Shown here: positions 2,244 through 63,035 of the stretch, piece by piece
How positions within the stretch are numbered: position 1 is the stretch's first letter
How the letters are laid out: each line of letters starts with the position of its first letter
Assembly: GCA_031292145.1 (NCBI GenBank)
Contig: JARLHR010000241.1
Coordinates: forward strand, 1-64,000
DNA from: Clostridium sp.
Lineage (GTDB): Bacteria; Bacillota; Clostridia; Clostridiales; Clostridiaceae
Direction: 5' to 3'
DNA length: 64,000 nt
Position numbers and translations under genes: made by a program
The notes under the pieces: model-generated
Seen by the model: the letters and a program-made list of their open reading frames with translations, nothing else
Databases searched by the model: none
What the model was told of the DNA's origin: nothing

Positions 2244-2299
2244 TAAAATTCCCCCTTGAGATAATAATATATTTCTTATTTTACTTATTACATATATTT

Positions 2300-2392
2300 T
2301 GATAATTAATGATGAATAATGAATGATTTAGGTTGAAATTCCTGTGGAATTTCTTCCTTCATCATTAATTATTCATTATTCACCATTAATTT
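2300..2392. repeat. Heptad-armed hairpin element (short form)
   Basis: The left arm is made of 7-bp units (TGATAAT, TAATGAT, GAATAAT, GAATGAT) and the right arm of complementary 7-bp units (TTAATTA, TTCATTA, TTCACCA). Between them is a hairpin, GAAATTCC-TGT-GGAATTTC (2335-2353). It matches the element in the pilB-pilC gap but lacks that element's AT spacer and second hairpin. It fills part of the 237-bp gap between the ANTAR regulator and gltB. The rest of that gap shows no convincing promoter. Confidence 0.75.
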
Positions 2393-4414: not shown

Positions 4415-4441
4415 TTTGCAATCCCCCCTTTTTTTGTTTTA

Positions 4442-4599
4442 GGCACATGAAAGAAAATAATAGACCAAAGATGCGACGCGTATTTCGTGTCAGGCAAGGA
4501 AACAAATTCTGCTCATAGCGAGCCTATTAGTAGAATTTGTTGACGCAGTATGACGCGAAATATGCACGCATACTGGTCTAGTATTTTCTTGATTGTGCC
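4442..4599. mobile_element. 158-bp MITE-like palindromic element, copy 1
   Basis: The ends are imperfect inverted repeats (GGCACATGAAAGAAAATAAT and its near complement ending in TTGATTGTGCC). The interior folds back on itself around CTCATAGCGAGCCTATTAG. It is exactly as long as the copies at 22035 and 47107 and is flanked by the same 3 bp, TTA, on both sides. No ORF is inside. It lies between the glnA attenuator and the glnA ribosome site, so it becomes part of the read-through leader. Confidence 0.85.
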
Positions 4600-4601
4600 T
4601 T

Positions 4602-4645
4602 AAAAAGGCGCACAATAGTAACATATGCTATCTATTGAACGCCTT
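4602..4645 (-). terminator. Attenuator terminator in the glnA leader
   Basis: On the minus strand, AAGGCG-TT-CAATAG pairs with CTATTG-TG-CGCCTT around an inner TAGC-ATAT-GTTA hairpin and is followed by TTTTT. It lies between a promoter (4669-4697) and glnA, so it would stop glnA transcripts early. Its 5' arm is shared with the upstream ANTAR-like hairpin, making the two structures mutually exclusive. Confidence 0.75.
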
Positions 4646-6681: not shown

Positions 6682-6875
6682 CCAACCGAAATTAGATACA
6701 TGTGTGTTCCGAAGGACTATGAAAATTTCGCTGGAAGATTCTAAATAGGAGGTTGCCCAATTTTAACTTGCTCCCACTATTCAGTGTGACAAGTTAAAAT
6801 GGAACAACCTCCTATTAAGAACATTCAACAGCTTATTTTCAAATGCCTTCTTCACACACATGTATCTAATTTATT
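6682..6875. repeat. Long-palindrome element, copy 1 (inverted orientation)
   Basis: A roughly 190-bp stem-loop. The outer arms are AATTAGATACATGTGTG and its complement near 6855-6871. A middle block, GACTATGAAAATTTCGCTG, partly pairs with CAGCTTATTTTCAAATGCC. The inner arms are AATAGGAGGTTG and CAACCTCCTATT, and the apical segment CTTGTCACACTGAATAGTGG is on the minus strand. Related copies lie at 42582, 51066 and 63184. It follows aspartate kinase and could also act as its terminator. The remainder of this gap, up to 7015, shows nothing else. Confidence 0.85.
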
Positions 6876-22001: not shown

Positions 22002-22034
22002 ACGTTCTCCTCCCCCAATTCTTACCCTTATTAA

Positions 22035-22192
22035 GGCACACTCAAAAAAATAATAGACCATTATGCTTGCCTATTTCGCGCCATACTGCGTCAGTAAATT
22101 CTACTAATAGACCCACTATGAGCAGAATTTCCTTCCTTGTCTGGCACGAAATATTCAGCTCATCTTTGGTCTATTATTTTCTTTCATGTGCC
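22035..22192. mobile_element. 158-bp MITE-like element, copy 2 (inverted)
   Basis: Same length and end sequences as the copies at 4442 and 47107, but in reverse orientation. Flanked on each side by TAA. It lies between the FAD-protein start (33 bp away) and the GtrA stop, so it separates or reshapes that gene junction. It has no coding capacity. Confidence 0.85.
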
Positions 22193-22203
22193 TAAGTCTG
22201 TCT

Positions 22204-22842: not shown

Positions 22843-25800
22843 TTAGAATAAATCCGGTTTAGTTCCGATATTTAAAGTAACAGGTACAGGAGTTGTTTTA
22901 TCTGCTGTTGCCGTTACAGTAACTTGGTCACTTCCAACTGGAGTAATAGTATATATTATTAAATATCTTTTACCTTTTTGCATTGTAAGCCCTGTGATAT
23001 TTCCACTATCATCAAGTGTTACTGATGTTGAATTACCAATTGTGTTATCATCTGAAATCTCATATTCTTTAAATGATGTATTATCCACTTGAATTTTTGC
23101 TGTATCATCTACACTCCAGTTTATTTGCGGATTTGATGACTCTGCATCAACTATCATAGCCATTGTTACTGGAATTCCATTGGTAACATTATTACCACTA
23201 CTACCATCTACTATGCCGGTTCCAGTTCCACTGTATATACCATGTTGTAAAATACTACTAGGTGCTATTGTTATATTTACTGTATTTGATACCCCGCTCA
23301 CATTTCCTCCTGAGTCAGTCTGGGTTGCTGTTATTACATGATTTCCATCTGCTAATGCTGTTGCTGGAGTTAAGCTCCAGTTTCCATTACTGTCTACTGT
23401 TGCTGTTCCTATTACTGTTGTTCCATCATACACAGTTACTGTATCTCCTGCCTGACCAGTTCCACTTATTGTTGGTTTATTGTTACTTGTACTTGTTCCA
23501 TCTGTTGGTGATGTTATCACTGGTGCTGATGGCACTATTGTTAAGTTTACTCTATTTGATACTCCACTTGTATTTCCTGCTGCATCTGCTTGTGTTGCTG
23601 TTATTACATGATTTCCATCTGCTAATGCTGTTGCTGGAGTTAAGCTCCAGTTTCCATTACTGTCTACTGTCGCTGTTCCTATGGCTGTTGTTCCATCATA
23701 TACAGTTACTGTATCTCCTGCCTGACCAGTTCCACTTATTGTTGGCTTATTGCTACTTGTACTTGTTCCATCTGTTGGTGATGTTATCACTGGTGCTGAT
23801 AGCACTATTGTTAAGTTTACTGTATTTGATACTCCACTTTCATTTCCTGCTGCATCTGCTTGGGTTGCTGTTATTACATGCTTTCCATCTGCTAATGCTG
23901 TTGCTGGAGTTAAGCTCCAGTTTCCATTACTGTCTACTGTTGCTGTTCCTATTACTGTTGTTCCATCATATACAGTTACTGTATCTCCTGCCTGGCCAGT
24001 TCCACTTATTGTTGGTTTATTGTTACTTGTACTTGTTCCATCTTTTGGTGATGTTATTACTGGTGCTGATACATCCATTGTTATATTTATAGTCGGTGTA
24101 CCTATTATTTTACTTGTAGCTACATTGTAAAAATTTGTATATGATATACTACTACTATTAGTTTTGGTTGTATTATCGGTATTTGTATATAAACCAAAAC
24201 CTAATTGTCCATACTTTCCACTTTCTGATTTAACTTTAAAATTTACTTCAATAGATCCATATTGTTCCCATAGACCTGTTGTACTATTATATGTGAAATT
24301 TATTTGAGGAATAGTTACTGTACATACCTTTCCACTTCCTACTAGTCCTCCGCCATCTACAGCTTGAAAATTTTCTCCTAAATCAATATTTAATTTGGCA
24401 TCATTAATGCTTAATGTAGTAACACCTGTTACTCCCTTTAAGCTTGCATCAACATTTTTCATATCTGCATCTACAGAATTATAATTAGCTTGATCATTAA
24501 ATGTACCTTTATAGTAATTACCATTAATACCAAAATCATTTCCACATAATTTTAGATAGGTATTTTTTATATTTGTATTATCTGAATTACTTATATCTAG
24601 CACAATTATCTTATATCCCTTGCCTATTATACTGTTTATTTGATCATCAGAATATGTTAAATTTCCTGAACTTATTATGATGATTGCTTTTTTAGCACCG
24701 GAAGTTCCGTAATTCGTCAATACATTATCTGCCACTTTTAACGCACTTCCAAATTGTCTTTGTTCATCATTAGAAATATCGTTATAAATATATCCATTTT
24801 GATAAAACTGCCTATACCCATCTTTTGTATTAGCATCATTCAGGTTATACAAAGGTAAAAATTTAGTTTTATCTATACCACTTAAATTTTCATCAGTCTG
24901 TTGCATAAGACAAGTCTTAGGGTCACTATAATTACTTCTAGTACCTACATACACAGAATCATTGTAGCCAACTACTCCTAACTTAATACCAGACAAGCTA
25001 CTATCATTTATAACCTGATTTACAAAACCATTTTGAACTTCTGAAAATCTTTGATTATTTTTCATGTCTTGAGACATATCTACTAAAACTTCAGCCTCAT
25101 CTATCATTCCACTTGATAACGAAAATGGAACTGTATTAATAGCATATTTTACGTTTATCTCATCTGATGATTTTGCAGGATTTGGAGTAACTGATTCTAG
25201 CGATGCGCTTATATTAGGAAGCGACGTATCATTTGTACTTGAAATTACAATATTGTTTATATTTATACTTTGTGTAGTCACATTTCCAGCCGTATCAGTT
25301 GCTGTAAATGTATAAGTTCCATTAGCACTTACTGTATAAGTGGTTGAATTACTTGGAGCCACTGGGTTAAATTGTACTGTTTTACTATCTGGCGTTGTAA
25401 TGCTTGCTACCGCTACATTATCGGTTGCTGCTGCTGCTATTGTTACCGTTCCGTTTGTTGGATCTGTTTTACTTGGAGTTAACGTTAATTTTGGTGCTGT
25501 TTTATCTATTGTTATATTTACTGTATTTGATTGTGAACTTACATTTCCTGCTGCATCTGTTGCTGTTGCTGCTATTGCATGAATTCCATCTGCTAAGCCT
25601 GTTGATGGTGTAAGTATCCAATTTCCATTTACGTCTGCTGTTACAGTTCCTATAAGCGTTGTCCCATCATATACTTTTACTGTTGAATTTGCTTCTGCTG
25701 TTCCCTTTATTGTTGGTGTATTGTTATTTGTTACTATATCCTTTGATGGTGTTGTTATTACTGGTGCTGCTGGTTTTGTAGTATCTATTGTTATATTTAC

Positions 25801-27372
25801 TATACTGGATGCTAAACTTTCATTCTTTGCTGTCGCTGTTGCTGTTGCTGTTATTGCATGAATTCCATCTGCTAATCCTGCCGATGGTGTAAGTGTCCAA
25901 TTTCCATTTCCGTCTGCCATTACAGTTCCTATAAGCGTTGTCCCATCATATACTTTTACTGTTGAATTTACTTCTGCTGTTCCTTTTATTGTTGGTGTAT
26001 TACTATTTGTTACTGTATTATTTACTGGTGTTGTTATTGCTGGAGCTGCTGTATATATGTCATTAACTGGCTGATTTGAAATTTGTGATGAATTTCCATA
26101 TTGATTTATACCTTGAGCTTCAATTATACAATTTTGTGTAACATCAAAAGCACCTGTATATACCTTCCATTCACCTGTAGTTCCACCTATGTCAATTCTA
26201 TACTGTTCTATTGTAGAATCTGATGAATAAGTTATAGCTGCAGTATCTTTAGTATTGGTTGGTGTAGTTGTAGTTGGTGTTACCGTTATTGTTGGGGGTG
26301 TTGGTGGAGTTGAAGAAGTTAATGTAAAATTAGCTGTATATCCCCCTCCTGCAATGACTGTCGGTATAGTCTGTGTTGAAGAATTATATCCTGTTTTTGA
26401 TGCCGTAACTATAGCCTGACCTGCTGGAACATTATCAAGTTCATAATTCCCAGATGTATCTGTTGTTGCTGTTACAACTCCTCCTGCCGAAACTGTTGCA
26501 CCTACTAAATTATTATTATTTGAGTCTTTAACATTTCCAGTTATTGTCGCAGTATTTGTTGTAGAAGTTGTTTTATTAATTAGAAGCTTAACAAAATCTA
26601 TTGCATAACCATCACCAGTACAACTAGTTGTATCATCAAATTTTAAAGATATACTTCCTGTTCTGATTAAATCCAAATATCTCTGTGGAATTTGAAAAGT
26701 TATCAATTTTCCTATAGGACCTGATTCATCTAAATTATTTATTACAGTGGATAATTCAGGAATCTCCACATCATTAATTGTAGCTTTATATTGTACTGTT
26801 CCTTGTGTAACCCCTCGCGCATTTCCAGGTTGAAAATCATCTAGAAACATTTGAATTGTGGCATTTTGTACACTCACTCCTGATAAACCATAATTTAAAA
26901 CTACAGGTGCAACTGTTTTAAGATATGAAGTTGTTGATCTTGTATATCCATCAGTATTGGTTCCCACTATAGTATCGTTACTATTATAACCTGAAACTAC
27001 CATTATCCTATCAGTACCTTGTGGATCACTACTTCCAGGGCTAAAAGGAAATGAATGTACATCAGTTTCTACCCCTGAAAACGGATCAATAGTTGTTGTT
27101 GTTGTTGTTGTCTTCTTATTCCAACCCGTTCCTGTAGTAGTTGTAACCGTCTTGTTCCAACCAAAACCAAAATTGTCTATGTCTCCAGCTCTAACCATTA
27201 ATTGAGCTTCGCTTGTATTTTGAAGTGTAACACTTTCAGCACTCCAATCTCCATTGTTTGTATCTGTGGTTGCTGCAGATACTCTATATCCTGTAAACAC
27301 CATTGAATATATCATCATTACAGCTAAAAAGAAACTTATAAACTTTTTGTGAAATTTTATTATTTTTTTCAT
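22843..27372 (-). CDS. Large secreted Ig-like/vWA-type protein, candidate pilus adhesin
   Basis: 1509 residues with a Sec signal peptide (KKFISFFLAVMMIYSMVF, cleavage near VSAA). Domains in order: an N-terminal beta region (about 40-270), a carboxypeptidase-regulatory-like domain (about 274-357), two Bap-type Ig repeats (about 445-620), a third Ig-like unit, a vWA-like region (about 750-985) opening with EVLVDMSQDM, and three nearly identical 90-residue Ig repeats (about 1100-1370) before a C-terminal beta domain. The vWA metal motif is degenerate (D-M-S-Q-D). No LPxTG, S-layer or choline-binding anchor is seen. It follows three pilin-like genes at 20 bp, so attachment through the pilus, as with PilY1-type tip proteins, is my inference. 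Confidence 0.85.
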   Translation of the reverse strand: MKKIIKFHKKFISFFLAVMMIYSMVFTGYRVSAATTDTNNGDWSAESVTLQNTSEAQLMVRAGDIDNFGFGWNKTVTTTTGTGWNKKTTTTTTTIDPFSGVETDVHSFPFSPGSSDPQGTDRIMVVSGYNSNDTIVGTNTDGYTRSTTSYLKTVAPVVLNYGLSGVSVQNATIQMFLDDFQPGNARGVTQGTVQYKATINDVEIPELSTVINNLDESGPIGKLITFQIPQRYLDLIRTGSISLKFDDTTSCTGDGYAIDFVKLLINKTTSTTNTATITGNVKDSNNNNLVGATVSAGGVVTATTDTSGNYELDNVPAGQAIVTASKTGYNSSTQTIPTVIAGGGYTANFTLTSSTPPTPPTITVTPTTTTPTNTKDTAAITYSSDSTIEQYRIDIGGTTGEWKVYTGAFDVTQNCIIEAQGINQYGNSSQISNQPVNDIYTAAPAITTPVNNTVTNSNTPTIKGTAEVNSTVKVYDGTTLIGTVMADGNGNWTLTPSAGLADGIHAITATATATAKNESLASSIVNITIDTTKPAAPVITTPSKDIVTNNNTPTIKGTAEANSTVKVYDGTTLIGTVTADVNGNWILTPSTGLADGIHAIAATATDAAGNVSSQSNTVNITIDKTAPKLTLTPSKTDPTNGTVTIAAAATDNVAVASITTPDSKTVQFNPVAPSNSTTYTVSANGTYTFTATDTAGNVTTQSININNIVISSTNDTSLPNISASLESVTPNPAKSSDEINVKYAINTVPFSLSSGMIDEAEVLVDMSQDMKNNQRFSEVQNGFVNQVINDSSLSGIKLGVVGYNDSVYVGTRSNYSDPKTCLMQQTDENLSGIDKTKFLPLYNLNDANTKDGYRQFYQNGYIYNDISNDEQRQFGSALKVADNVLTNYGTSGAKKAIIIISSGNLTYSDDQINSIIGKGYKIIVLDISNSDNTNIKNTYLKLCGNDFGINGNYYKGTFNDQANYNSVDADMKNVDASLKGVTGVTTLSINDAKLNIDLGENFQAVDGGGLVGSGKVCTVTIPQINFTYNSTTGLWEQYGSIEVNFKVKSESGKYGQLGFGLYTNTDNTTKTNSSSISYTNFYNVATSKIIGTPTINITMDVSAPVITSPKDGTSTSNNKPTISGTGQAGDTVTVYDGTTVIGTATVDSNGNWSLTPATALADGKHVITATQADAAGNESGVSNTVNLTIVLSAPVITSPTDGTSTSSNKPTISGTGQAGDTVTVYDGTTAIGTATVDSNGNWSLTPATALADGNHVITATQADAAGNTSGVSNRVNLTIVPSAPVITSPTDGTSTSNNKPTISGTGQAGDTVTVYDGTTVIGTATVDSNGNWSLTPATALADGNHVITATQTDSGGNVSGVSNTVNITIAPSSILQHGIYSGTGTGIVDGSSGNNVTNGIPVTMAMIVDAESSNPQINWSVDDTAKIQVDNTSFKEYEISDDNTIGNSTSVTLDDSGNITGLTMQKGKRYLIIYTITPVGSDQVTVTATADKTTPVPVTLNIGTKPDLF
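23261..24070 (-). repeat. Three tandem 270-bp coding repeats in the adhesin gene
   Basis: The same block recurs with period exactly 270 bp (anchor TGGTGCTGAT at 23521, 23791 and 24061), encoding 90-residue Ig-like units with GTSTSNNKPTISGTGQAGDT. DNA identity between units is very high, including synonymous sites, so the array arose recently or is homogenised. Copy number may vary between strains. Confidence 0.92.
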
Positions 27373-30473: not shown

Positions 30474-30509
30474 CACTTCACCCCCTTACAACTTTACTTA
30501 AACATTTGA

Positions 30510-30580
30510 TATGATCTTGGTTGCAGCATAGCTGCTTTTTTTATTATATGATCTTGGTTGCAGCATAGCTGCTTTTTTTA
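30510..30580 (+). repeat. Two tandem 37-bp hairpin-plus-T-run units
   Basis: ATGATCTTGGTTGCAGCATAGCTGC followed by seven T occurs twice with period 37. Each unit has a GCAGC-ATA-GCTGC hairpin and a T-run on the plus strand, antisense to the pilus operon. The second unit touches the stop codon of the upstream pseudopilin gene. The GATCTTGGTTG core also occurs in the array at 41224. Confidence 0.85.
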
Positions 30581-31564
30581 TTAGTGTATATTTTTCTTAT
30601 AGTACCCTGTAAATAACGGATTGTTATTATTAGTAGTATCATCTATTTCAAGTGTAATATCATATAAAGTTCCAACATTATCCTCTTGTGGATTTTCAGA
30701 GCGATTGTCGTATATATTTATTTGACCTGTACGTGGCTCCACATCTACATTTAATTGTTGAGATTTTTCAATATAAATATTAGGAACATCTGTTGTTTTA
30801 TTGTAAACATCCAATTCTATATTGTCATTGGCTGGTACAGATCCATCTGAATTTATATAATTACTAAAATTTATAACCAAATCTTTATCAGCTTGATCTG
30901 TTTTGGTTATTGATAATAAATCCTGTCCTGTATAAGCTTTAATATCAATATTTTGATAACCATTAGTATCTACAGTAAAATAAACAGACATTTCTATTTG
31001 GGATTGACTAATACCTGGCACTAGTATTGTCGAACTATCACTTACTTGTGGTGTTTTATATTGTTTTTCATCAGGATTAAGCCAATAATTTATATAATCT
31101 TGTGAATTTATCTTACTAATATAAAGCTTATTACTTTGCGAATTAAGTGTACCATTTGTATCTAATCCAACACCTTCTCCTGTTGTCTGATTCGATGCTT
31201 TCGTAGGAGTTAAGGTTACATTTTCCACATAATTTCCCGAAGTTCTTGTATAAATAATGTTTCCATAAGCATCTTCTTCAATTTGACCATTACCATCTTG
31301 TTTCTCTTGAAAATTTATATTATTTCCCAGATTAATTTGGTAATTATTATTGCTGTTAGGAAGGCTAAAATTAGCAGCCTGCATTGCTTCAATTATCTTT
31401 TTCCCCTCCAAAGCAGCTGCCTGTTTTACCTGACCAGACTTAATCTGTTTTGTAATAATCATTAATCCATCATATATACAAATTGAAATTATTGCTAATA
31501 TCGCCATGCATATTACTACTTCTATTAGAGTAAACCCTCTACATTTTTTAGAATTATTCTTCAT
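30581..31564 (-). CDS. Pseudopilin (prepilin-type N-terminus)
   Basis: 327 residues. The leader ends in KKCRG-FTLIEVVICMAILAI with the +5 Glu, giving a standard class III signal and N-terminal helix. The remaining part is a soluble beta-rich domain with many Asn, Thr and Asp residues (TDTNGYQNIDIKAYTGQDLL), as in surface-exposed minor pilins. ATG at 31564, placed just after AGGTGAGG; a GTG at 31573 inside the ribosome site is less likely. The ATG lies 5 bp beyond the PilO stop, so the genes are coupled. Confidence 0.9.
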   Translation of the reverse strand: MKNNSKKCRGFTLIEVVICMAILAIISICIYDGLMIITKQIKSGQVKQAAALEGKKIIEAMQAANFSLPNSNNNYQINLGNNINFQEKQDGNGQIEEDAYGNIIYTRTSGNYVENVTLTPTKASNQTTGEGVGLDTNGTLNSQSNKLYISKINSQDYINYWLNPDEKQYKTPQVSDSSTILVPGISQSQIEMSVYFTVDTNGYQNIDIKAYTGQDLLSITKTDQADKDLVINFSNYINSDGSVPANDNIELDVYNKTTDVPNIYIEKSQQLNVDVEPRTGQINIYDNRSENPQEDNVGTLYDITLEIDDTTNNNNPLFTGYYKKNIH

Positions 31565-34672: not shown

Positions 34673-34800
34673 CATTATCCCCCATACCTTATTTTCAATT
34701 ATAATATCCATATAATTTATTTTAATTAATTCTTAATTCATCTGAACAAAAACACATGAATACTAGTCTTTTGCAATATATCTAATAACAAGATATATTT

Positions 34801-34848
34801 CAATGTACAATGTACAATTAACAACTAAAATATTAATTATTAAAATTT
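34801..34848. repeat. Half of a heptad-armed element
   Basis: Seven-bp units CAATGTA, CAATGTA, CAATTAA, CAACTAA, AATATTA and ATTATTA lead into AAATTTC, the start of the family's first hairpin, but no hairpin or right arm follows. This is a decayed left half, in the pilA-pilM gap. The rest of that gap holds the pilA hairpins at 34918-35003. Confidence 0.6.
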
Positions 34849-35510: not shown

Positions 35511-36713
35511 TTAAATTTGAGTGTAACTATCAAATAATGGTAACATTATAGATGCTATCATAAATCCAATTACAAGTCCCATTACTACTATCAAAATAGG
35601 TTCCATAAGAGCTACTGATGTTTGAATTATGGTTTCCAACTCTTCATCATAAAAATCTGCTGTCTTATTTAATATATCATCTAGGGAACCTGTCTCTTCA
35701 CCTATTTTTATCATTGAGTAAAGCATTGGTGGAAAAATTTCACTTTCTCTCATTGAGGAATATAAACTTTCTCCTCTCATTACATTATCTCTTATTTTTA
35801 ATAATACTTTTTCTGAGACTTTATTACCTGTAACTTCTGAAACAATTTTTAAAGCCTCTACTAACTGCAATCCACTTGCTATCAGTGTAGATAAAGTTCT
35901 CGTAAATCTTGATACTATAATCATTTGATTAAGTTTCTTAAGTACTGGCAATTTTAATTTAAGTTTACTTGAAAGTAATTTTCCTTCTTCTGTTTTAAAA
36001 AAGATATTAAATCCAAAGATACACATACCTATTAAAACAATTATGATAATCCAGTTATTTTTAATTCCATCACTAAGCCCTAGTAACAATCTAGTAGACC
36101 AAGGCAGAACCGTTCCACTTTCTTTAAATATTTCTGTAAATGTAGGCATTACAAAGGTTAATATAAATACAATTGCTCCAATAGAAACCATTCCAAGCAC
36201 GCTTGGATAAATCATAGCACTTTTTACTTTATTAGTAGTTTTATTTTCTTTTTCATAATGAGCTGCCATTCTAAGCATTATAGCCTCTAAACTACCACTT
36301 GCTTCTCCTGAAGCTATTAAGGCTACTAACAGCTCTGGAAATACATCTGTATGCTTTCTCATGGCATCTGATAAAACGCCACCTTTTTCAACTTCTTCAT
36401 TTATCTCTTTTGTTGCTTCCCTTAATTTTTTATTTTCAATTTGATTTGACAGTATGTCCAAACAAGTTAAAATAGGAACACCTGCATTTAACATGGTATA
36501 AAACTGCCTGCAGAATATTGATAAATCTTTAAGTTTTACTTTCTTATTAAAATTCAGTTCAATATTAGTACTTTGAACTACTTCTTCTACTATTAAAGGA
36601 TAATATCCATTCCCTGAAATATAATCTATGACTTCATTTTTGGAATCAGCTTCATAATTCCCCTCTATTTTTTCACCCTCTGAATTCATAGCTCTATATT
36701 TAAACTTTCCCAT
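35511..36713 (-). CDS. pilC: PilC type IV pilus platform protein
   Basis: 400 residues with two GspF domains (about 60-190 and 260-390), each a helical bundle followed by membrane segments such as SIGAIVFILTFVMPTF and ILIVVMGLVIGFMIASIMLP. Conserved FCRQFYTMLNAGVPI and SLDDILNKTADFYDEE are typical. PilC couples the PilB and PilT motors to pilin insertion. ATG after GTGAGGTG. The gap to pilB is filled by a heptad-armed repeat. Confidence 0.96.
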   Translation of the reverse strand: MGKFKYRAMNSEGEKIEGNYEADSKNEVIDYISGNGYYPLIVEEVVQSTNIELNFNKKVKLKDLSIFCRQFYTMLNAGVPILTCLDILSNQIENKKLREATKEINEEVEKGGVLSDAMRKHTDVFPELLVALIASGEASGSLEAIMLRMAAHYEKENKTTNKVKSAMIYPSVLGMVSIGAIVFILTFVMPTFTEIFKESGTVLPWSTRLLLGLSDGIKNNWIIIIVLIGMCIFGFNIFFKTEEGKLLSSKLKLKLPVLKKLNQMIIVSRFTRTLSTLIASGLQLVEALKIVSEVTGNKVSEKVLLKIRDNVMRGESLYSSMRESEIFPPMLYSMIKIGEETGSLDDILNKTADFYDEELETIIQTSVALMEPILIVVMGLVIGFMIASIMLPLFDSYTQI

Positions 36714-36730
36714 CTAAACACCTCACTTCA

Positions 36731-36860
36731 ATTGACAATTAACGATTGACAATTGTAAATTATAGATGAAATTCCTTCGGAATTTCTTATAAATATATTT
36801 TTAAGTTCTGTAAGAACTTGTTCCTTCATTGTGCATTGTCAATTGTTAATTGTACATTGT
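36731..36860. repeat. Heptad-armed double-hairpin element in the pilB-pilC gap
   Basis: Left 7-bp units (TTGACAA, TTAACGA, TTGACAA, TTGTAAA), hairpin GAAATTCC-TTC-GGAATTTC (36768-36786), AT spacer, hairpin AAGTTCT-GTA-AGAACTT (36803-36819), then right units TCATTGT, GCATTGT, CAATTGT, TAATTGT, ACATTGT. The arms are mutually complementary. The right arm reaches the pilB stop codon and the left arm begins 18 bp from the pilC start, so the element fills the gap. Confidence 0.82.
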
Positions 36861-38554
36861 TACTCATATTCTACCTTCGCAATTGTTGAAAGTTCTTCTA
36901 TAGTGGTAACTCCACTTAAAACAAACTCCTTACATTCACTTTCTAAAGTCTTCATTCCATTTGCTATACAAATATCTCTAAGCTCATCTGAATTTCCACC
37001 TGCATTTATAGCTTCTCTATGTTGCCTGGTCATTTCCATGATTTCGTAAACACCAATTCGTCCTGAGTATCCAGTTTCATTACAATATCCGCAGCCTTTT
37101 CCTTTATGGAGAACAAGGAGCTTGTCTATATCCTGTCCTAAAAGTTCTTTTTCATATATACTTGCTTCGTATTCTGTTTTGCAATGAGTACAAATTTTTC
37201 TAACTAATCTTTGGGCCATTACTCCCATAACAGAAGTTGAAACCAAATATGGCTTAATTCCCATATCTACAAGCCTAATTATTGATGAAGGTGCATCATT
37301 TGTATGAAGGGTGCTTAAAACTAAATGCCCTGTAATAGCGGCTCTAGTGGCAATTTCTGCAGTCTCTTCATCTCTGATTTCCCCAATCATAATTATATCT
37401 GGGTCTTGTCTTAATATACTTCTAAGACCGCTTGCAAAGGTCAAGCCTGCTTTCTCATTTACACTTACTTGATTGACACCATTCATAGTAAACTCAACAG
37501 GATCTTCTACTGTAATTATATTTACACTGTTGGAATTTAATTCCCTAAGTATTGAATACAAGCTAGTAGACTTACCGCTTCCTGTAGGACCCGTAACTAA
37601 AATTATTCCATGAGGATTTGAAATTATCCTATCTAATCTTTTAATATTATCTTCACTCATGCCCAGCTGATTTTTACTTAATATAGCACCACCAGTATTT
37701 AGAATTCTTATAACTATCTTTTCACCATTAACTACTGGCAGTACAGAAACTCTAAGGTCTATATCTCTTCCATCAACACTTGCCATTATCCTTCCATCTT
37801 GTGGTATTCTCTTTTCTGCTATATTTAAACCTGCAAGAATCTTTATTCTGGTAACTAAAGGTCCTAAGCTTTCTATTCCAATAGTATTAACGGTTTGAAG
37901 CTTTCCATCTATTCTATATCTTATTCTTATTTCATTTTCAAAGGGTTCTATGTGGATATCTGATGCTTTCATTTCTACTGAATTTTTAAACATATAGTCT
38001 ATCATTTTAACAGCAGGTGCACTATTTACTTCATTTATATCCTCTGCAGTTGCTGTTTTAGAATTCTTAACTGCTTTTGCACTTTCTTTTGCCAGTTGAA
38101 GTGCGGCATTATTTACTTGCTGGCTGCTATAATATATACCTATAAATTTTTTAATATCAGCCTTTTTAGATATAAAAGACTCTATTTCAAAACCTGTTGA
38201 TATAGCCACGTCATCTATTGCAAAAATATTCAAAGGATCTTCCAATGCAACTTTAATTTTATTATTCTCAAATCCAAAAGGAATCAATATATATTTGTCA
38301 CATAAATTTTGAGTAATTAATGTTATTGCCTTTCTGTCAAAATTTATTGTATTTAAGTCTATCTTTTTAATTCCTGTTTGCTGCTCTATGGCTTCTATTA
38401 TATCTTCTTCTGTAATTATCTTGTTTTCAACTAGTATTTCCCCCAGTTTCTTACCAAGGGCTTTCTGAGACTTTAGTGCTTCTTGCAATTGATAGCTAGT
38501 AATTTTTCCTGCATTTACGAGAATATTCCCTAATCTTCTCTTCTCAGTTGCCAT
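36860..38554 (-). CDS. pilB: PilB type IV pilus extension ATPase
   Basis: 564 residues. N-terminal MshEN-type domain (RLGNILVNAGKITSYQLQEA, about 1-150), then the GspE motor with Walker A GPTGSGKST, Asp box, Walker B IIMIGEIRDEETAEIA and His box GHLVLSTLHTNDA. The zinc-binding CTHC...GCGYC cysteines are present. It powers pilus extension from the cytoplasmic face. MshEN domains can bind c-di-GMP, which makes a functional link to the GGDEF and HD-GYP proteins in this window plausible. ATG at 38554 after AAAGGTGAG. Confidence 0.97.
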   Translation of the reverse strand: MATEKRRLGNILVNAGKITSYQLQEALKSQKALGKKLGEILVENKIITEEDIIEAIEQQTGIKKIDLNTINFDRKAITLITQNLCDKYILIPFGFENNKIKVALEDPLNIFAIDDVAISTGFEIESFISKKADIKKFIGIYYSSQQVNNAALQLAKESAKAVKNSKTATAEDINEVNSAPAVKMIDYMFKNSVEMKASDIHIEPFENEIRIRYRIDGKLQTVNTIGIESLGPLVTRIKILAGLNIAEKRIPQDGRIMASVDGRDIDLRVSVLPVVNGEKIVIRILNTGGAILSKNQLGMSEDNIKRLDRIISNPHGIILVTGPTGSGKSTSLYSILRELNSNSVNIITVEDPVEFTMNGVNQVSVNEKAGLTFASGLRSILRQDPDIIMIGEIRDEETAEIATRAAITGHLVLSTLHTNDAPSSIIRLVDMGIKPYLVSTSVMGVMAQRLVRKICTHCKTEYEASIYEKELLGQDIDKLLVLHKGKGCGYCNETGYSGRIGVYEIMEMTRQHREAINAGGNSDELRDICIANGMKTLESECKEFVLSGVTTIEELSTIAKVEYE

Positions 38555-39786: not shown

Positions 39787-39829
39787 AAAAAACAAAAAAC
39801 CAACCCAAAATAAATTTAAAGGTCGGTTG
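39787..39829 (-). terminator. Rho-independent terminator downstream of pilT
   Basis: On the minus strand, AACCGACC pairs with GGGTTGGTT (one G-T pair) and TTTTTTGTTTTTTC follows. It lies about 280 bp after the pilT stop, with a 54-bp repeat element in between, and before pilD. The remainder of the 660-bp pilT-pilD gap is AT-rich with no ORF or clear promoter. Confidence 0.75.
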
Positions 39830-39853
39830 CACTACTAACTCATCATATATTGG

Positions 39854-39907
39854 GGCACATGAAAAAATAATAAACTTGTATGCTCATCTTCTATTTTTTC
39901 ATGTGCC
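39854..39907. mobile_element. 54-bp short relative of the 158-bp element
   Basis: Bounded by GGCACATGAAAAAATA and TATTTTTTCATGTGCC, here with perfect inverted ends (both carry CATG). Same length as the copy at 4844. The flanking triplets do not match (TGG and TAA). Located in the pilT-pilD gap. Confidence 0.65.
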
Positions 39908-40110
39908 TAAGTGCCCAAATTAAATATATGAATCATTGTTTCCTAATAATAAAATATACTTGTTATTTATATGCAAATAGCAAATAAAATATTATACTTT
40001 CCATATATAATTTTAACATGCCTTATTTTAGTAGTCTATATTTATTTTGTACTTTTTTAAGAACATATGTAATTTTTTAGGATTAATATCCCTCTAATTA
40101 CATATTATAT

Positions 40111-41223: not shown

Positions 41224-41364
41224 TAAGATCTTAATTGCGCTTAGTAAGTTCTTGGTTGTGCTTCACACTTTTTTTATTTGTGCGCGCTTTTTTTATATAA
41301 GATCTTGGTTGCGCTTCGCGCTTTTTTTATTTAAGATCTTAATTGCGCTTCGCGCTTTTTTTAT
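41224..41364 (+). repeat. Tandem array of hairpin-plus-T-run units
   Basis: About four units of AAGATCTT(GG/AA)TTGCGCTTCGCGC followed by seven T, period about 36 bp, the first one or two degenerate. Each intact unit is a short GCGC-TTC-GCGC-type hairpin with T-run on the plus strand, i.e. terminator-like. The array occupies most of the divergent pilT-uppS intergenic region, within the likely 5' leader of the uppS-like gene. It shares its GATCTTGGTTG core with 30510-30580. Confidence 0.85.
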
Positions 41365-41435
41365 AGGTGTGTATTTTTTGATATTATTTGGTTATACTCT
41401 TAAAAGCAATACTAGTTTAAGAGGTGAAATATTTT

Positions 41436-42581: not shown

Positions 42582-42775
42582 AAGAAATTATATAAATGTT
42601 TGTGAAATGGGCATTTGAAAATAAGCTGCTAAAAACACTTAAGGGAAGGTTGTTCCACTTTAGCTTATCACACTGAATAGTGGGAACAAGCTACAGTGGG
42701 TGCAGCCTTCCCTTTAGTGTTTTCAGCGATATTTTCATAGTCCCATGGAATAAACATTTATATAATTTCGGTTGA
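42582..42775. repeat. Long-palindrome element, copy 2
   Basis: Outer arms GAAATTATATAAATGTTTGTG with its complement near 42751-42769, then GCATTTGAAAATAAGCTGC opposite CAGCGATATTTTCATAGTCC, inner arms AAGGGAAGGTTGTTCC and complement, and apical CTTATCACACTGAATAGTGG. The right end reads ATTTCGG. It lies between DUF1294 and the metA 3' end and may act as metA terminator. The remainder of the 42462-42800 gap has no other feature. Confidence 0.85.
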
Positions 42776-43820: not shown

Positions 43821-44117
43821 ATCTATATAAGGAAACGCATTGAGAAATTTATTTACTATCTGTTATTTGATTTTTGATCAAGAATAATGTATTTAATTAG
43901 TTAAGAGTTAATAACTAAGAACTAATAGATAATGATGAAATCCCTGACGGGGATTTCTAAAAAATATTTTTATTGAAAAGCCTAGGGCTTTTCTTCCGCA
44001 TCTCTTACCTCTTACTTCTTATCTCTTACCTGTATAAAGTCTTTTCCTTAAATACAGTTATCACAAAAATTACAGGTTATAAATATAATTTTCAATGAGG
44101 AACCTATAATTATTATA
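43821..44117. repeat. About 300-bp composite repeat, copy 1, with heptad-armed double hairpin
   Basis: The whole stretch is matched by 49301-49605 in the same orientation, including TTTGATTTTTGATCAAGAAT and CCTGTATAAAGTCTTTT. Inside (43906-44031) are left 7-bp units of the AGTTAAG type, hairpin GAAATCCC-TGACG-GGGATTTC, AT spacer, hairpin GAAAAGCC-TAG-GGCTTTTC and right units of the TCTTACC type. It occupies the gap between metA and the tnpA remnant. Confidence 0.85.
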
Positions 44118-45828: not shown

Positions 45829-46005
45829 TCATAAGTGAACATCCAAATTTAATATTTGGAAATGTGAACTTACACCTCAGGCGCTTAAACGATACTACTA
45901 ATATGTACCATGCGTTGTATGGGAATTTAAGCCCTTGGAGCGTTATATCAAGCCAAAGTAGCTTTTAGCAAAATGGGACGCATTGAACAGGGAATTAAAC
46001 AATAT
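45780..46005 (+). ncRNA. Candidate omega (right-end) RNA of the TnpB element
   Basis: The region from the tnpB 3' end to about 46005 contains GGCGCTTAAACG, GGGAATTTAAGCCC and TGGAGCG segments that can pair locally, ending near CGCATTGAACAGGG. TnpB guide RNAs are derived from exactly this position in related elements. The precise 3' end, and so the guide, cannot be fixed by eye. This 216-bp gap holds no ORF and no obvious promoter for the following lactonase gene. Confidence 0.5.
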
Positions 46006-46044: not shown

Positions 46045-47106
46045 ATGATATTAAATAATACTGTGATGATTGGATTTATTGGAACTTATACTAAAAATAA
46101 AAGTAAAGGAATATATAAAATAATTTTTGACACTACTTCTGGTAATATTGAAAAATTTAATTTAGCTTATGAAATAGAAAATCCTACATATTTATCTATT
46201 GATAGAGAAAGACATATTATATATTCGTGTTGTAAAATCGATGACAAAACTGGAGTATCATCATTTAAATATTGGCAAGAAAAAAATGAATTGTATTTAA
46301 TAAATAATTATCTTTCTGAAGAAAAACAACCTTGTCATGTAAGCATAAGTAATAGCAAGCAAATACTTATATCTTCAAATTATCATGAAAACAAAATGAT
46401 TGTCTATAATACTTTAGAAGGCTTAATTTTAAACTATCCTGTGATTGGAAATCATAGTCCTTTCTGCATAAATGCTTTAAAAGAAGAAAAACCTCATATT
46501 CATTGTTCTATGTTTACTCATGATGAAAATTATATTTTGTCAATTGATCTAGGTATTGATAAAATGATTGTTTCAGCTATAAAAGATGATAAACTTGTTT
46601 ATAAGGAACATCTCAGTTATTCTTTTCCTGCTGGAACTGGCCCAAGGCATGTGACTTATTCAAATTCTACTTATCCCTTTTATTATGTTTTAAGCGAGCT
46701 AACTTCTGAAATTTTTGTTTTTGAATATAATTTAAATAACGAAGTACTTTTTAAAAACATTCAAACTATAAACAGTTTGCCTGAAAATCATACTGGCAAA
46801 AAATCTGGAGCTGCAATTAGAATTCATAGAAATAATAAATTTCTATATACTTCAGATAGAGGTAATAATTCAATAAGTTTATTTTTAATTAATTCTCACG
46901 ATGGACACTTAAAATATGCAGACACTTTTTCTTGTGAAGGAAATTCACCTAGAGATTTTCAAATAGATCCAACAGGTAACTTTTTACTTTGTGCTAATGA
47001 AAATTCTGATAATATATCTATATTCTCTATCAATCAACTTACTGGAGTTTTGAAGTTTATTAAGTCAGAAAACATTCCAACTCCTACGTGTATAGAATTT
47101 ACCTAA
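46045..47106 (+). CDS. Lactonase-family seven-bladed beta-propeller protein
   Basis: 353 residues, the length of 6-phosphogluconolactonase (YbhE/Pgl) family members. FIGTYTKNKSKGIY opens the first blade, and SFPAGTGPRHVTYS, YTSDRGNNSISLF and GNSPRDFQIDPTGNFLLCANENSD are characteristic. It may hydrolyse 6-phosphogluconolactone or another sugar lactone in the cytoplasm. Start uncertain: ATG at 46045 or at 46066 (MIGFIGTYT), neither with a good ribosome site. That, and the adjoining TnpB element, suggests the insertion displaced the native 5' end. A 158-bp element starts directly at its stop codon. Confidence 0.88.
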   Translation: MILNNTVMIGFIGTYTKNKSKGIYKIIFDTTSGNIEKFNLAYEIENPTYLSIDRERHIIYSCCKIDDKTGVSSFKYWQEKNELYLINNYLSEEKQPCHVSISNSKQILISSNYHENKMIVYNTLEGLILNYPVIGNHSPFCINALKEEKPHIHCSMFTHDENYILSIDLGIDKMIVSAIKDDKLVYKEHLSYSFPAGTGPRHVTYSNSTYPFYYVLSELTSEIFVFEYNLNNEVLFKNIQTINSLPENHTGKKSGAAIRIHRNNKFLYTSDRGNNSISLFLINSHDGHLKYADTFSCEGNSPRDFQIDPTGNFLLCANENSDNISIFSINQLTGVLKFIKSENIPTPTCIEFT

Positions 47107-47264
47107 GGCACATGAAAAAAAATAATAGACCAAAGATGCGACGCATATTTTGTACCAGACAAGGAAGCAATTTATGCTCATAGTGGGCCTATTAGCTTAA
47201 ATTACTGACGCAGTATGGTACAAAATAGGCAAGCATACTGGTCTATTATTTTTTTGATTGTGCC
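47107..47264. mobile_element. 158-bp MITE-like element, copy 3
   Basis: Ends GGCACATGAAAAAAAATAAT and ATTATTTTTTTGATTGTGCC, interior pairing around CTCATAGTGGGCCTATTAG. Same length and orientation as the copy at 4442. Flanked by TAA on both sides; the left TAA is the lactonase stop codon. Its strong stem and T-run would also terminate lactonase transcripts. Confidence 0.88.
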
Positions 47265-47277
47265 TAAATCAGTTGCC

Positions 47278-49290: not shown

Positions 49291-49300
49291 TGCGATATAG

Positions 49301-49605
49301 GGAAACTAATTAATAAGTTTATTTATTATATGTCATTTGATTTTTGATCAAGAATAATATATTTAATTAGTTAAGAGTTAAGAACTAAAAACTAAGAGTT
49401 GATGATGAAATCCCTAAACGGTATTTCTAAAAAATATTTTTTGAAAAGCCTATGGCTTTTCTCCCTTACCTCTTACCTCTTACCTCTTAACTCTTACTTC
49501 TTACCTCTTACCTCTTACCTCTTACCTGTATAAAGTCTTTTTCTCAGATGCAGTTATTACAAAAATTACAGGTTATAAATATAATCTTCAATGAGAAACC
49601 CTATA
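49301..49605. repeat. About 300-bp composite repeat, copy 2, with heptad-armed double hairpin
   Basis: Direct repeat of 43821-44117. The right arm here is nine 7-bp units of the CTTACCT type (49465-49527), against about four in copy 1, so unit number varies. Left arm units are AGTTAAG, AGTTAAG, AACTAAA, AACTAAG. Hairpin 1 has partly decayed (GAAATCCCTAAACGGTATTTC); hairpin 2 is intact (GAAAAGCC-TAT-GGCTTTTC). Confidence 0.85.
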
Positions 49606-49667
49606 ATAATGATTCCTTGGAAACCGAAACAAAACATGCTCCTTATTTCGGCAAGCTATATTTATAT

Positions 49668-51065: not shown

Positions 51066-51256
51066 CCAGAAATCAGAAATATTTTTGTGCAACAGGCATT
51101 TGAAAATGAGCTGTCCAAGGTTCTTAGTTGGAGGTTGTTCCACTTTAGCTTGTCACTACTTTAAGTGGGAGCATGCTAAAGTGGGCACAACCTCCAACTT
51201 AGAACCTTCAGCGACATTTTCATAGTCCTGCGAAACAAAAACATTTCTGATTTCGG
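51066..51256. repeat. Long-palindrome element, copy 3
   Basis: Outer arms AGAAATCAGAAATATTTTTG and its complement near 51235-51253, GGCATTTGAAAATGAGCTG opposite CAGCGACATTTTCATAGTCC, inner arms AGTTGGAGGTTGTTCC and complement, apical CTTGTCACTACTTTAAGTGG. It lies in the 529-bp gap between the HAD and HD-GYP genes. The rest of that gap has a lone right end of the 158-bp family near 50813-50825 (TTTTTATTGTGCC) and otherwise nothing. Confidence 0.85.
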
Positions 51257-62975: not shown

Positions 62976-63035
62976 TTTAGTTAAAAGTTAAGAGCTAACA
63001 ATTAACAGTCGAAATCAAATTTCTTATAGAATTTC
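62976..63035. repeat. Half of a heptad-armed element
   Basis: Seven-bp units of the TTAGTTA/AAAGTTA/AGAGCTA/ACAATTA type lead into a decayed hairpin (GAAATCAAATTTC and AGAATTTC), without a second hairpin or right arm. The 62955-63420 gap otherwise holds the long-palindrome copy at 63184 and AT-rich sequence. Confidence 0.6.

Follow-up and report, generated by a model that had tools for sequence, protein, structure and literature searches.

Heptad elements in the window

The window, that is, the whole 64,000-nucleotide stretch of Clostridium sp. DNA analysed here, carries four elements in which arrays of 7-bp units (heptads) stand as inverted arms around one or two small hairpins. Element 36731 begins with a left array in the AATTGAC/AATTAAC dialect (36729..36764, forward strand). 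Two hairpins follow on the same strand: GAAATTCC..GGAATTTC (36768..36786), recognised by reading, by folding and in the ortholog from the related genome G079, and AAGTTC..GAACTT (36803..36819), recognised by reading and folding. The right, inverted array lies at 36825..36859 on the reverse strand and is absent from the G079 ortholog. Element 43906 is contained in a longer MITE-like repeat (43826..44110, forward), the flanks of which are common to other copies. Its left array of AGTTAAG/AACTAAG units (43899..43933, forward) precedes the hairpins GAAATCCC..GGGGATTTC (43937..43957, forward; core pattern and folding) and GAAAAGCC..GGCTTTTC (43975..43993, forward; reading and folding), while the right, inverted array (43999..44031, reverse) reads AGGTAAG/AAGTAAG once reverse-complemented. 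A second copy of the longer repeat, delimited by flank alignment (49296..49606, forward), contains element 49369, which consists of a left array of five units (49369..49403, forward), a first hairpin with one mismatch (49407..49427, forward; reading, folding and a looser core pattern), a second hairpin, again GAAAAGCC..GGCTTTTC (49443..49461, forward; reading and folding), and a right, inverted array of nine units (49465..49528, reverse). Because both are copies of one longer repeat, with flanks 91-98% identical to a third copy, 43906 and 49369 are not independent elements. This MITE class is non-coding and multi-copy with shared flanks; by eye, its terminal inverted repeats TATAGGG/CCCTATA match and TA is present at its ends.

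Element 2300 has a left array in the AATGATG/AATAATG dialect (2299..2332, forward), a single hairpin GAAATTCC..GGAATTTC (2335..2353, forward; reading and folding) and a right, inverted array (2358..2391, reverse; reading, inverted-repeat and array listing), with a complementarity of 0.86 between the two arrays. The initial annotation had assigned all four elements one order of array, hairpin, AT spacer, second hairpin and array. This order holds for 36731, 43906 and 49369 but not for 2300, which has one hairpin and no AT spacer. Two further sites had been described as halves. Site 34801 is a solitary array without a core, in the AATGTAC/AATTAAC dialect (34799..34828, forward), for which automatic pairing found no partner; at 62976, a left array (62979..63006, forward) is followed by a poor GAAATC..ATTTC hairpin, and no right array is convincing. 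Folded as single strands and compared with dinucleotide shuffles, elements 36731, 43906, 49369 and 2300 gave z values of -6.2, -3.8, -5.9 and -7.0, respectively, and for each of them 0 of 200 shuffles folded as well. No Rfam model reached its gathering score over the elements, the best match in the stretch 36650-36950 having an E value of 0.45.

Other repeats and structured RNAs are present in the window. MITE-like fold-back elements of about 160-190 bp recur at 4437-4604, 22034-22193, 47106-47265, 6689-6872, 42584-42769 and 51069-51254; their arms, for instance AGGCACATG..TGGTCTATTATTTT, are separated by 106-108 nt, and similar ends adjoin heptad elements in other parts of this genome. At 30509-30583 and 41283-41365, hairpin-like units of 37 and 34 bp are repeated in tandem, and hairpins like these are also seen by eye within the longer heptad-element cores of other stretches. 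Additionally, we found a RAGATH-18 RNA (45932-45994, 65.8 bits), a Cyclic di-GMP-II riboswitch (39812-39952, minus strand) and tandem repeats of 270 and 279 bp (23265-24083 and 25503-26051; 93 and 88% matching), the lengths of which are multiples of three.

A large non-coding family

The elements are real members of a large non-coding family. A strict core pattern, GATGAAATYCC..GGRATTTC, has 27 matches in the 6.34 Mb of this genome and 0 in the reversed control; a looser pattern has 35, two palindromic double counts included, versus 1 in the control. In 464 kb of the same genome we counted 35 arrays of period 7, compared with 0 in a Markov-1 control and 0-5 for each of the other periods from 4 to 12. 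Period-7 arrays were not clearly enriched in samples of two other carrier genomes, G154 (2 in 200 kb) and G029 (1 in 200 kb, in stretches partly chosen around known matches). Among relatives, the strict pattern occurs in 9 of 146 genomes, this one included, and in 4 of 46 genera; the single matches in G136, G142 and G145, all of one genus, were judged by eye not to be elements. In public genomes 102 stretches match, and among those listed many Clostridium and gut or rumen Clostridia have heptads, while unrelated taxa are without them. Three matches came from viral contigs, none with heptad arrays by eye.

By eye, the longer MITE-like repeat accounts for 21 of the 27 strict matches; some of these have incomplete flanks or sit at the end of a contig. 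Element 43906 is among the 21, and 49369 is a further copy found by the looser pattern. The remaining six (L003, L008, L011, L013, L019 and L024) are bare, with unique flanks. Unit types among bare elements include AATTGAC, AATGATG, AGTAATA, AGTTGAG and AGTGACA, and no exact target-site duplications of bare elements were recognised by eye in aligned orthologous loci. Some rumen Clostridia have one-sided elements, composed of one array and one hairpin and at times in tandem (L090, L096). In five stretches from uncultured Clostridia (L059, L091, L093, L136 and L146) the same GATGAAATTCC hairpin closes an array that is built from other short repeats or from small hairpins in place of heptads.

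The units follow a degenerate heptad, roughly A-R-T-N-N-A-N, in which the A-R-T positions are enriched by construction, as the unit phase was chosen to favour them. AGTTAAG, AGTTAAC and AATTAAC are among the leading units overall, and runs such as twelve AGTGACA units occur. In this genome 11 of 53 arrays have AGTTAAG as their consensus. Among the 35 of 37 G079 arrays listed none does, and AATTAAC leads there with 13. The hairpin core often has a short outer foot, such as GGATGAA or GGAACAA.

The two arms share a type of unit

If arms belong together, they should match each other better than arms swapped between elements. Across 31 automatic pairs from this genome, among them false pairs, some visibly so, arm complementarity was 0.72, compared with 0.62 for swapped arms, and 0 of 10,000 permutations reached the observed value. 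With an orientation filter the values were 0.74 and 0.64 (29 pairs; 0 of 10,000), and after removal of flagged MITE-borne copies 0.73 and 0.64 (26 pairs, at least one of them, C111 46.7k, still MITE-borne; 0 of 10,000). In G079 the 18 pairs gave 0.78 versus 0.73, with 16 of 10,000 permutations, and 10 of 10,000 when the same 18 were run again. True arms thus exceed swapped arms in both genomes, and the objection that their complementarity is no more than that expected of AT-rich 7-bp repeats fails. As the initial annotation had claimed, elements differ in their unit, which the two arms of an element tend to have in common, more so than arms taken from other 7-bp arrays of the same genome.

The likeness does not go further than this. 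The true partner was the best or tied-best match in just 4 of 29 elements of this genome and 1 of 18 in G079. Shuffling the units within the right array leaves complementarity level (16.1 versus 16.0; 29 of 31 pairs scored, and the 22 with a score of 9 or more compared), so that heptad order carries no signal. Arm lengths are often unequal: in 18 MITE-borne copies caught by script, which are a subset of all such copies and include two rows out of phase, left arms count 3-9 units and right arms 2-9, and element 49369 is itself a case in point. Moreover, several elements have mixed arms, for instance C198 109.8k and C111 23.5k. The two arms had been described as keeping in step; they do so for the type of unit, but not for length, heptad order, best-partner match or base-by-base sequence, and the unequal copy numbers, the missing order signal, the rarely best partner and the mixed arms speak against a strict pairing system. 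The arms of an element share a type of unit, not a sequence base by base, an order or a number.

Change at orthologous sites

Between relatives whose flanks are 88-98% identical, the differences amount to complete or almost complete heptads: 14 bp between L134 and L140, 7 bp between L068 and L115, and 15 bp between L054 and L101. L115 has also lost the second hairpin relative to its pair, and one site (L092/L118) is filled in one genome and empty in the other. At the junction compared between L036 (G079) and L232 (this genome) an array is present in both. Site 36731 was examined in an alignment of 14 orthologous loci. The element is present in G079, with the right arm missing, and in G146; G183 has heptads without hairpins, and the heptad element is absent by eye in G168, G185 and G162. 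Window site 2300 is without an array in G079. In hairpin 1 of 36731, compared with its G079 ortholog, two stem pairs have changed on both sides and still pair, while the outermost pair is lost.

Between this genome and G079, with flanks 72-90% identical at the sites compared, the orthologous interval holds an array for 10 of 18 strong clusters in one direction and for 10 of 12 in the other. The background is about 0.2, with 47 of 233 spacers in the first direction (p 0.001) and 57 of 247 in the second (p 0.00002). The two directions share sites, and each includes one match doubtful by eye, C111 41.2k and gC 103.3k. The units have no memory of the site: at 10 orthologous sites profile similarity was 0.672, versus 0.658 for unrelated sites (p 0.24). 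In the same comparison, unit similarity within this genome (0.607) was lower than between it and G079 (0.658), so that a species-wide dialect is not shown for this genome.

How can a site be kept while its units are not? The main rival of evolution in place is turnover by re-insertion, in which mobile lineages with fixed unit types repeatedly enter the same permissive junctions, so that matched arms arrive ready-made and nothing is rewritten. Elements that share a site may indeed have been inserted there independently, the junction being a favoured one, and need not be a single element rewritten. The lack of site memory in the units agrees with such turnover, as do the filled and empty pairs, and by eye unit types track the second hairpin (AGTTAAG beside GAAAAGCC, AATGATG beside AAATTACG). 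Orthologous cores point both ways. At C198 52.6k, 76.6k and 113.0k they are no more alike than unrelated ones, as re-insertion would have it; over 7 pairs they are weakly more alike (p=0.022), driven mostly by the window site. There, by manual count, 51 of 59 core bases are shared between this genome and G079 while several left-arm units differ, and at C111 23.5k the core is common to L068 while the left arm has changed, both of which count against re-insertion, as does a sharing of sites well over background. In 7 hand-picked pairs (6 with G079, 1 with L068), mean similarity is 0.83 for the two arms of an element and 0.73 for orthologous arms, although 3 of the 7 pairs show no difference between the two kinds of comparison; arm and core limits were picked by hand in both 7-pair comparisons. 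We consider re-insertion somewhat unlikely, and infer a joint rewriting of both arms in place, with which it competes.

Position relative to genes

Placement relied on a crude ORF call, which placed 32 of 38 clusters in this genome and 25 of 28 in G079. Most lie between tandem genes (24 of 32 and 20 of 25, respectively), a junction type that is not enriched when compared with all spacers of 100 bases or more (158 of 219 and 153 of 209). In 13 of the 24 tandem pairs of this genome and 14 of the 20 of G079, the cluster ends 10-27 nt upstream of the downstream start, as this crude caller has it.

The elements may have a role in mRNA. Messages could carry the arrays as series of 7-nt sites bound by a protein, such as a cold-shock or S1-type OB-fold protein, and the hairpin, just upstream of the ribosome-binding site, could keep these sites open or shut; the unit type would then be maintained on both sides by selection and not by mutation. 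The spacing to the start suits this idea, and hairpin mismatches on the transcribed strand lean towards G-U over A-C (34 versus 19, p=0.053, not corrected for composition). A function of this kind was proposed for TAACTGA arrays before start codons by MacGregor (2015), who also cites the binding of CspB with one protein per heptamer (PMC4679880). Nonetheless, units vary widely between elements, some orthologous junctions are without an element and tandem junctions are not enriched, and we regard selection on such binding sites as an improbable reason for the matching arms.

Search for a mobilising enzyme

REP, REPIN and BIME sequences are described as many short intergenic palindromes, often in inverted pairs (PMC3733652, PMC6006769). 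The Clostridium elements are likewise high-copy short intergenic palindromes, with inverted, footed hairpins that come two to an element. They could be REPINs proper, in which a RAYT (TnpA-REP) tyrosine transposase mobilises inverted tagged hairpin pairs and the arrays are by-products. Y1 reading frames of 240, 227 and 194 aa, RAYT-like in appearance, do exist in G079, G118 and G204. Yet no heptad element stands beside the RAYT-like genes or remnants in stretches L267-L272 (by eye and hairpin pattern; inverted repeats in L267-L269 only), this genome itself holds one Y1 fragment with two stops, and 4 of the 14 genomes searched are without a Y1 match (of these four, only G117 has a stated completeness, 82%). 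Exact hairpins lie near 47 of 90 arrays, and by eye none of these 47 carries a GTAG or CGTC foot. The Y1 search and the reading of RAYT flanks thus do not support a RAYT/REPIN link, and we think it very improbable that these are REPINs in the strict sense.

One of the RAYT-like frames, that of G079, spans positions 987-1700 of stretch L267. Its 3' part runs into what we take, from its appearance, to be ComM/Mg-chelatase-like sequence. Of 15 genomes, 11 have matches to reverse transcriptase (PF00078) and 4 do not. No mobilising enzyme for the elements was found.

Comparison with known repeats

The elements resemble heptamer repeats already described in other bacteria, with new features added. 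Tandem 7-bp units that are degenerate at some positions and intergenic, as in the Xanthomonas and Nostoc types, are found here as well. Reportedly, the small dispersed hairpin repeats studied in Nostoc by Elhai and co-workers (2008) lie inside heptamer arrays and minitransposons; inverted arms of matching type are not known among them. In Xanthomonas, arrays of a GGGAATC heptamer form 70 and 75 inverted pairs, and 83% of the repeats are in the same gene context between two species, with differing lengths (PMC4692102). A degenerate heptad with some fixed positions, intergenic placement (close to the upstream gene in Xanthomonas), convergent pairs and sites that are kept while lengths differ are thus common to both systems. 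In contrast, the Xanthomonas unit is a single G-rich one throughout the genome, with a proposed quadruplex, and the passages on it describe neither a hairpin core nor element-specific unit types (PMC4692102). Quadruplex-capable units with G-tracts are absent among the leading Clostridium units.

TAACTGA repeats, known from Beggiatoaceae, Cyanobacteria and some Bacteroidetes (PMC4679880), form short arrays just before start codons, and their letters almost match those of the AGTTAAC dialect as it reads on the right arm (TAACTGT). They differ in being direct repeats, with one inverted case in 170 sets; related heptamers rarely repeat, and the sections on the arrays describe no flanking of hairpins and no evident mechanism of spread (PMC4679880). 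A single fixed heptamer in direct arrays is not what we see in Clostridium, where arms are inverted and unit types many. The heptanucleotide elements of Geobacter metallireducens, with copy numbers of 49 and 15-16, each consist of four or five heptads in tandem, and one class is drawn as a strand looping back; unlike the Clostridium units theirs have a fixed consensus, and a hairpin core between arms is not part of the description given (PMC2700814). As for REP, REPIN and BIME sequences, the inverted palindromes are alike, whereas the foot and the RAYT neighbourhood are not found in Clostridium, and heptad arms do not feature in the sections on REP (PMC3733652, PMC6006769). Our search of open-licence papers found no description of such elements in Clostridium.

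A proposed origin of matched arms by slippage and exchange

Our preferred reading, to which we give a probability of about one half, is that these are REP/BIME-like intergenic non-coding elements, the arms of which evolve by replication slippage together with template switching or exchange. It accommodates the core matches (27 versus 0), the period-7 enrichment, the shared dialect, the whole-heptad indels, the lack of register and the filled and empty sites, and also site recurrence without unit memory, the weak core similarity, the higher likeness within elements than between orthologs (0.83 versus 0.73) and the compensated stem pairs. Each array would lengthen and shorten by slippage, which is well supported. 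Fold-back template switching would carry the unit type from one arm of an element to the other, and the type may also pass from element to element, so that both arms could drift together to a new dialect without keeping register. Occasional copying to new sites by some activity would happen, or have happened, and one lineage also rides in the MITE-like repeat.

Template switching is able to make inverted repeats more uniform and to bring about compensatory changes (PMC8794818; see also PMC8604942). It should also leave register-specific matches, and none were seen; an exchange of unit type would therefore need slippage afterwards, and the lack of register argues against a simple, recent template switch over the whole arm. 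A bolder version is that a genome-wide population of inverted heptad arrays evolves in concert and in place, with both arms of each element rewritten together to a new unit type, by fold-back copying that acts on the element's arms, in the time it takes the flanking genes to diverge to roughly 80-85% identity. On this view, one mutational engine would lie behind the heptamer repeats of many phyla. We hold this version to be doubtful.

In these Clostridium elements the heptads form inverted arms that enclose hairpins, and the arms of one element have a unit type in common that does not extend to all elements. With dozens of copies per sampled half-megabase, this genome offers a countable and comparable set. 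Slippage, template switching, re-insertion and RNA function predict different outcomes for such a set, and close strains of a culturable Clostridium could decide between them.
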